The notes under the pieces are model-generated. The model searched no databases and had not been told where the DNA came from. It worked only from the letters and a program-made list of their open reading frames with translations. A program made the position numbers and the translations under genes. DNA of 64,000 nucleotides from Pontiella desulfatans (GTDB lineage Bacteria > Verrucomicrobiota > Kiritimatiellia > Kiritimatiellales > Pontiellaceae), in contig NZ_CAAHFG010000002.1 in the NCBI RefSeq assembly GCF_900890425.1, forward strand, positions 868,001 to 932,000. The letters run 5' to 3'. Below are positions 42,293-43,207 of this stretch, piece after piece; position 1 is the first letter of the stretch, and the number at the start of each line of letters is the position of its first letter.

Positions 42293-42330
42293 CGGACGGA
42301 AAAAGTGACGGCCGTCACTTTTTCCGTCCG
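42293..42330. repeat. 38-bp perfect palindrome, copy 3 of a three-copy family
   Basis: The left arm CGGACGGAAAAAGTGACGG is exactly complemented by the right arm, centred in GGCC between 42311 and 42312. It shares almost every base with the palindrome at 19208 and most with that at 7577. Here it lies 36 bp upstream of the Na/Pi cotransporter start and just past the small-RNA units, so it cannot be explained only as a 3' terminator of an upstream gene. Confidence 0.88.
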
Positions 42331-42346
42331 GAAGGGGGGAGTGGAG

Positions 42347-42425
42347 AAAAAAACGGCGCATGGAAAAGGGGAAGAAAACCATGCGCCGCCCGGCATGTGG
42401 GGACATGCCAATCAGGGAGTTGTTG
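42347..42425 (-). ncRNA. Predicted small RNA A (about 79 nt) with CU-rich terminator loop
   Basis: Reading the minus strand, a promoter-like pair at 42460-42432 predicts a start near 42425. The transcript would contain a 7-bp hairpin with a CCCC loop (GGCATGT/ACATGCC) and end in an intrinsic terminator: stem CGGCGCATGG / CCATGCGCCG (42388-42354) then T7. The 15-nt terminator loop is TTTTCTTCCCCTTTT. No open reading frame of note lies within. Units B and C upstream repeat the same plan. The start is inferred from promoter spacing, not known. Confidence 0.65.
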
Positions 42426-42431
42426 CGTATG

Positions 42432-42460
42432 TTTAGACCACCCTGTGGAAAAGGGTTCAA
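42432..42460 (-). promoter_or_regulatory. Sigma70-like promoter of small RNA A
   Basis: TTGAAC (-35, 42460-42455), 17-bp spacer, TCTAAA (-10, 42437-42432), read on the minus strand. The same hexamers and the same spacer length recur in unit B, and a variant in unit C. Confidence 0.6.
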
Positions 42461-42537
42461 AAAACCCGACAAAAAAATCATGGTCCAACAAAAGCGTGGA
42501 TTAAAAGGGAGGATGCCTTGGCGTCCGGTCGGGGCAC

Positions 42538-42627
42538 AAAAAAACGGTGCACGGAAAAGAGGAGGAAAAACCGTGCACCGTTAAAACACGCCCCCCAAAC
42601 CGGGAACCATGTTTTTCAGGGATAAGA
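42538..42627 (-). ncRNA. Predicted small RNA B (about 90 nt) with anti-SD-like terminator loop
   Basis: The promoter-like pair at 42662-42634 predicts a start near 42627. The transcript carries GGTTCCCG in its 5' half (42608-42601), shared with unit C, and ends in a terminator: stem CGGTGCACGG / CCGTGCACCG (42580-42545) then T7. The 16-nt loop is TTTTTCCTCCTCTTTT, which contains CCTCC, the complement of a Shine-Dalgarno core. Compared with unit A the stem differs at two positions, both compensated on the opposite arm. Confidence 0.68.
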
Positions 42628-42633
42628 TACAGC

Positions 42634-42662
42634 CTTAGACCCCACCCGGAATTAATGTTCAA
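42634..42662 (-). promoter_or_regulatory. Sigma70-like promoter of small RNA B
   Basis: TTGAAC (42662-42657), 17-bp spacer, TCTAAG (42639-42634), minus strand. The spacer also shares TTCC and GGGTGG-like bases with promoter A. Confidence 0.6.
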
Positions 42663-42697
42663 AAAAAGGGGTGAAAAAATCACACAGGCGTTCTGGC

Positions 42698-42764
42698 AAA
42701 AAAAAACGGCGCAAGGAAAAGAGGAGGGAAACCTTGCGCCGGAAAACGGGAACCCAACAATGAT
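42698..42764 (-). ncRNA. Predicted small RNA C (about 67 nt) with anti-SD-like terminator loop
   Basis: The promoter-like pair at 42799-42771 predicts a start near 42764. The transcript begins with a short unpaired part containing GGTTCCCG (42754-42747) and ends in a terminator: stem CGGCGCAAGG / CCTTGCGCCG (42741-42707) then T9. The 15-nt loop is TTTCCCTCCTCTTTT, nearly the same as in unit B. The stem differs from unit A at one pair (U-A to A-U), again compensated. Confidence 0.66.
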
Positions 42765-42770
42765 ACCCAT

Positions 42771-42799
42771 TTTAGATTGTTAAAGATCAATTCGGGCAA
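42771..42799 (-). promoter_or_regulatory. Sigma70-like promoter of small RNA C
   Basis: TTGCCC (42799-42794), 17-bp spacer, TCTAAA (42776-42771), minus strand. The -10 is identical to that of unit A; the -35 is weaker. Confidence 0.55.
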
Positions 42800-43207
42800 T
42801 AAGGCCCTTTGTTCCTGAGAACGGTCGTAATTCATCACTTTTTATTCAGTCTGGCGAGAGAAATCTTCTACGTTTTTTTGGACCCCCTGTGGAGGATTAA
42901 CGTTTAACCTTCATGGTCAATGGTTTATCGGGGTCGGGATGGAGGTCATTTTATTGATTTTTTAATTCGGATCCGGTGTGTTTTGTGGCCACGAATTAGC
43001 AAATTTCGAGTTCCAGCAAGAGTTTTGCCGATGCTTGGAGGAGGTTCTCGGGCTCGTTGCGACGTAAAGTTTGGTTTACCGTCAAGTCGTCGGAGCGGTG
43101 CGTGGTTCCAGGCATGGGGAATGCATTGGAAATGCGCACGATTTGTTTGTCAGGGTGTTGCGGGTTGAGTACAGTTTCCATCTGTTTTCATAGAAAGGAC
43201 GAAGAGT
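42800..43207. other. Non-coding stretch between small RNA units and skp
   Basis: About 400 bp without a convincing gene. A short hairpin (GTTCCTGAGAAC, 42831-42842 region) and several T-runs are visible, but no fourth unit with the same promoter and terminator plan. The base composition is more AT-rich than the flanking genes. It must hold the promoter of the skp-lpxD pair; I could not pick one with confidence. GGACGAAGAG precedes the skp start. Confidence 0.5.

Follow-up and report, generated by a model that had tools for sequence, protein, structure and literature searches.

A dispersed multicopy family of predicted small RNAs with a common pyrimidine-rich terminator loop in the genus Pontiella

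Three tandem units on the minus strand

The stretch of Pontiella desulfatans DNA analyzed here (64,000 nucleotides, hereafter the window) carries three 42-nt repeats on its minus strand, at 42347-42388, 42538-42579, and 42700-42741. Each repeat comprises a GC-rich stem of 10-12 bp, a pyrimidine loop of 15-16 nt, and a run of T7-T9. The hairpins noticed in the initial annotation are far above chance (fold z-scores of the three units -4.9 to -5.4; 0 of 200 shuffles as good), and its statement that no protein frame explains the region was borne out: no frame is preserved. The features, in the direction of the minus strand, are as follows.

42829-42858, minus strand: conserved upstream elements of unit 1, probably its promoter; CTCGCCA (42858-42852) and TGATGAATT (42837-42829), from the alignment with six orthologues
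42698-42823, minus strand: unit 1 predicted sRNA, about 125 nt (inferred 5' end); CGTTCTCAGGAAC (42822-42811), then a hairpin AAAATGGG..CCCGTTTT (42773-42743), then the terminator
42698-42742, minus strand: unit 1 terminator hairpin, loop UUUCCCUCCUCUUUU
42635-42665, minus strand: unit 2 promoter, sigma-E-like; TTTTTGAAC, N16, GTCTAA
42538-42628, minus strand: unit 2 predicted sRNA, about 91 nt (inferred 5' end)
42536-42581, minus strand: unit 2 terminator hairpin, loop UUUUUCCUCCUCUUUU
42433-42464, minus strand: unit 3 promoter, sigma-E-like; TTTTTTGAAC (42464-42455), N16, GTCTAA (42438-42433)
42347-42426, minus strand: unit 3 predicted sRNA, about 80 nt (inferred 5' end); 5' single strand AACAACUCCCUGA, then stem-loop 1, then the terminator
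42345-42389, minus strand: unit 3 terminator hairpin, loop UUUUCUUCCCCUUUU

The array consists of one class A member (unit 1) and two class B members (units 2 and 3). A perfect 38-nt palindrome (CGGACGGAAAAAGTGACGG / CCGTCACTTTTTCCGTCCG) occurs at 42293-42330 of the window and again beside two other units of the P. desulfatans genome (L086:3129 and L087:2955); in the DNA sampled from this genome, each of its three copies is close to a unit.

A dispersed family within the genus

A covariance model built from the three units, the search that the initial annotation had proposed, returned 12 matches with E < 0.01 in the 8.66-Mb P. desulfatans genome and matches in 22 of the 25 genomes of the genus Pontiella. 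The view that the array is a duplicated sRNA family was thus well supported (about 12 genome copies, covariation in the stem of the terminator, and a dedicated promoter at each of units 2 and 3), whereas its confinement to the array site was not, the matches being dispersed through the genome. Searching the genome with the loop only and no structure revealed further copies, several of them in GC-rich stems with T tails and with differing stem sequences. In a scan of 388 genomes of the phylum, strong matches were confined to the genus; eight other genomes gave weak matches only (E 5e-6 to 7e-5), which we took as chance. A 21-base loop pattern was found in 15 stretches among 84,980 species genomes, of which 13 lay in Pontiella, Pontiellaceae, or Kiritimatiellales; the matches in Lachnospiraceae and in a Desulfobacteraceae MAG were embedded in other sequence without a hairpin and were likewise attributed to chance. 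The viral contigs searched contained no match.

When the window and ten related loci were compared with Rfam 15, only tRNAs and one riboswitch exceeded the threshold; no Rfam family matched the units, and their candidate Rfam relatives scored at noise level. An nhaA-I riboswitch match (RF03057, 48.5 bits) lies near one unit (L083:5759-5817). Our literature search found no sRNA described for Kiritimatiellota or Pontiella. Judged by sequence comparison, the units belong to a previously undescribed dispersed family with approximately a dozen copies per Pontiella genome.

A covarying stem presents a long pyrimidine loop

Over 115 matches, 99.2% of the stem cells were paired, and 207 two-sided stem changes were counted against 57 expected by shuffling, a number reached in none of 500 shuffles; because the alignment was fitted to the covariance model, these counts lean towards the model. 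Sliding the stem partner by one to three columns abolished the covariation signal. The loops of the same matches are 10-18 nt long and 95% C/T, and 114 of the 115 contain CTCC, TCCC, or CCCC. These motifs are absent from the 38 further terminator-like hairpins compared from that DNA, whose loops are mostly 3-7 nt, a comparison that is partly circular because the covariance model itself scores the loop, and its matches favour the stem and loop used for selection. The loop cores are of the CCUCCUC or CUUCCCC type; the initial annotation had noticed neither this long C/U-rich loop nor the spread of the family over the genome. The predicted class B RNAs carry, besides the loop, a second single-stranded stretch, CUCCCUGA. 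Covariation of the class B 5' stem-loop was not recovered on a MAFFT alignment, although single sequences do fold it.

Promoter classes and start modules

The initial annotation had assigned a promoter to each unit and had implied the sigma-70 class. The assignment stood for units 2 and 3 (TTGAAC, 17 bp, TCTAAR) but not for unit 1: its six orthologues do not share the TTGCCC-17-TCTAAA, and the TCTAAA forms the 5' arm of a hairpin that is itself conserved. The implied class had to be given up, since the conserved elements are sigma-E-like and not TATAAT-like; a simple scan for sigma-70 promoters found none at the three units.

Class B promoters follow the pattern TTTTTTGAAC-N16/17-GTCTA[AC], with a spacing of 16 or 17 and no other, and TTTTTTGAAC-N16-GTCTAA is conserved at units 2 and 3. 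Downstream come AACAACTCCCTGA, then a stem-loop whose sequence varies, and finally the terminator. A comparison with ECF signatures identified TTTTGAAC-N16/17-GTCTA as a close variant of GAAC-N16/17-(G)TCTRA; the class B pattern also resembles the AlgU/sigma-E promoter, GAACTT-N16/17-TCTGA (PMC10651043). The narrower pattern TTTTTGAAC-N-GTCTAA occurs in the 8.66 Mb only at the promoters of units 2 and 3. Across seven genomes, the strict class B pattern matched 24 sites and its reversed form 3, and 19 of the 24 stand directly before a unit. By these counts, the sigma-E-like promoter is nearly private to the family. Three of the 24 sites precede the same gene in three species (L188, L197, and L208, ~1500), a putative neutral zinc metallopeptidase for which PF04298 was tested in L188 only; this gene is likely a protein-coding member of the sigma-E-like regulon. 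One further site precedes a nitroreductase-like gene in a single species (L200, ~1500), identified from its first residues only, and the context of the last site is ambiguous.

Classes C and D have GTCMA-N16-CGT before 27 units, with a spacing of almost only 16. The ECF41 promoter is TGTCACA-N16-CGTC (PMC3426412); the form found here is TGTCCAC or GTCAAC-N16-CGTC, so the -35 element is a near match and not an identity. The class C pattern alone is unspecific (15 sites versus 18 in the reversed-pattern control). In class A, that is, unit 1 and its six orthologues, the order CTNGCCA, TGnTnAATT, CGTTCTCAGGAAC is conserved, as is the hairpin AAAATGGG...TTCCCGTTTT, whose 5' arm includes TCTAAA. The P. 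desulfatans genome has approximately 30 sigma-70-family genes; upstream of its sigma-factor genes neither promoter type was found, apart from one weak partial match.

A further start module is the 3' end of an mRNA. The terminator module was seen directly after genes whose products end like PEP-CTERM proteins (L063, L073, and L098), and weaker copies follow EF-hand-like genes (L089, L090, and L101); these endings were read from translations. Copies after such genes are possibly 3'-UTR-derived sRNAs, and they may also be plain mRNA terminators. At the array, sequence features general to sRNA genes with intrinsic terminators are present: a structured predicted RNA, a covarying stem, no reading frame, and, for units 2 and 3, an own promoter, with a probable one at unit 1.

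Pairing with translation starts

Shine-Dalgarno motifs are enriched upstream of start codons, and the loops paired more favourably at translation starts than within coding sequences (p 5e-5, 2e-7, and 0.008). However, shuffled probes of the same composition paired with translation starts equally well (20, 23, and 30 of 30), and loop-specific anti-Shine-Dalgarno pairing is therefore unsupported by the energy test. The target pattern AAAGAGGAGG-N2..9-ATG occurred at 24 places versus 8 for its reverse, as expected from Shine-Dalgarno use alone. The candidate targets, which are leads only, are MsrB-like and MnhB-like genes, each in two genomes, and in P. desulfatans a RodA-like gene. Before the start codon of the MsrB-like gene in the two species (L264 and L266) stands AAAAGAGGAGG, whose complementarity to the loop spans 11 bases. 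A search that recovers the Hfq of Escherichia coli and Bacillus subtilis found none in seven Pontiella genomes.

The equal performance of shuffled probes would also fit sRNAs whose C/U-rich loop binds a protein, either an RNA chaperone or, as a sponge, a translational regulator, and not ribosome-binding sites. Conservation mainly of pyrimidine composition (95% C/T) points the same way, and the failure to find Hfq means that another chaperone may exist. We nevertheless regard protein binding as unlikely: ordered CCUCCUC and CUUCCCC cores are kept, as is typical of mRNA-pairing sRNAs (LhrC, PMC4132741; SmelA075/A099, PMC3927594), and class B has its second single-stranded stretch.

Genomic context

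The array, a class A member followed by one or two of class B, adjoins skp(OmpH)-lpxD in five other species as it does in P. desulfatans, and beyond it in those species lies ychF, where P. desulfatans has a Na/Pi cotransporter gene; family tests covered OmpH and YchF, each in a single relative, and the rest were read from near-identical sequence. This synteny ties the array to an envelope-biogenesis neighbourhood.

Its conservation over six species also bears on whether the units are a mobile repeat of palindromic type (REP/MITE-like) or ordinary bidirectional terminators that copying has dispersed. The many dispersed copies, some at gene 3' ends, would suit such an origin, but the stems vary by compensatory changes around a constant loop, dedicated promoters stand at precise spacing, and the loop is missing from the other terminators of that DNA, all of which makes it highly improbable. 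That the units serve the Na/Pi cotransporter gene as attenuators or as parts of its leader, the alternative raised in the initial annotation, is barely credible although this gene lies downstream on the same strand, since ychF takes its place after the orthologous arrays of five species, the other copies are dispersed and mostly not upstream of a cotransporter, each of units 2 and 3 has a promoter of its own, and the array is separated from the gene by another palindrome.

Proposed mechanism

We consider it likely that the three units are members of a multicopy family of trans-acting sRNAs, in which several stress promoters drive RNAs whose common loop represses translation without Hfq. The family itself, its conserved structure, its promoter specificity, and its synteny are read directly from the sequence; beyond these we infer expression, the sigma factors, mRNA pairing, and the targets. 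Each unit would be a short autonomous transcript comprising a promoter, a class-specific 5' segment and stem-loop, and an intrinsic terminator, whose unusually long loop would display a conserved C/U-rich, anti-Shine-Dalgarno-like motif. The loop would pair with the G/A-rich ribosome-binding sites of mRNAs, as would the 5' ACUCCCUGA stretch of class B, and this pairing would lower translation of the targets with no need for Hfq. The promoters differ between copies, with a sigma-E-like and an ECF41-like type at the least, so that one effector loop would receive several stress inputs. With a dedicated promoter, accessible C/U-rich single strands, and a terminator, the units have the anatomy expected for trans-acting sRNAs. 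Hfq-independent, stress-induced translational repression is proposed on the basis of the Hfq search, the Shine-Dalgarno enrichment, and the likeness to anti-Shine-Dalgarno loop sRNAs.

More tentatively, and with rather less than even confidence, we suggest that one anti-Shine-Dalgarno-like terminator module has come to stand behind various ECF-type promoters and mRNA 3' ends, such that different stress sigma factors could act, by way of paralogous sRNAs, on the same translational brake in a genus without Hfq. The unusual trait is a single terminator-loop module common to several promoter classes. If expressed, the family would amount to a large sRNA regulon whose promoter classes can be read, in a genus without a recognisable Hfq, and with clustered promoters and a common loop, the question of why sRNAs stay multicopy becomes directly testable.

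Comparison with known sRNA systems

The short predicted RNAs behind sigma-E-type promoters resemble the sigma-E-dependent enterobacterial sRNAs MicA, RybB, and MicL, which depend on Hfq and act through a 5' seed. Unlike these, the Pontiella units occur where Hfq was not found, and their conserved motif is the terminator loop.

LhrC1-5 of Listeria monocytogenes (RF00616) are multicopy sRNAs with CUCCC...UUUU motifs in the terminator loop and in a single-stranded stretch; they are induced by envelope stress and control lapB without the need for Hfq (PMC4132741). The Pontiella family shares the multiple copies and the CU-rich motif in both the terminator loop and a single-stranded region. It shows no sequence homology to LhrC (18.5-19.3 bits versus a gathering score of 110 for RF00616), and whereas LhrC is LisRK-dependent with nearly identical copies, the Pontiella family has several promoter classes and divergent 5' parts.

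In Rhizobiales, SmelA075 and SmelA099 present CCUCCUCCC anti-Shine-Dalgarno loops on variable stems (PMC3927594), and the "cuckoo" RNAs, including CcsR1-4 of Rhodobacter, have hairpin loops with an anti-Shine-Dalgarno motif in clustered copies (PMC10253847). A motif in a hairpin loop, variable stems, and clustered copies are likewise found in Pontiella. The cuckoo/CcsR RNAs, however, carry CCUCCUCCC in at least two hairpins per RNA, whereas in the Pontiella units only the terminator loop holds the motif, in the form CCUCCUCUUUU. CcsR1-4 arise by cleavage of a single RpoH-driven transcript that includes a DUF1127 gene, whereas each of units 2 and 3 has a promoter of its own.

The best reading of these comparisons is that the family would work like LhrC and the anti-Shine-Dalgarno loop sRNAs while being, by the tests made, a member of neither; if expressed, it would parallel, independently and in a different phylum, the designs of LhrC and of the rhizobial anti-Shine-Dalgarno loop sRNAs.
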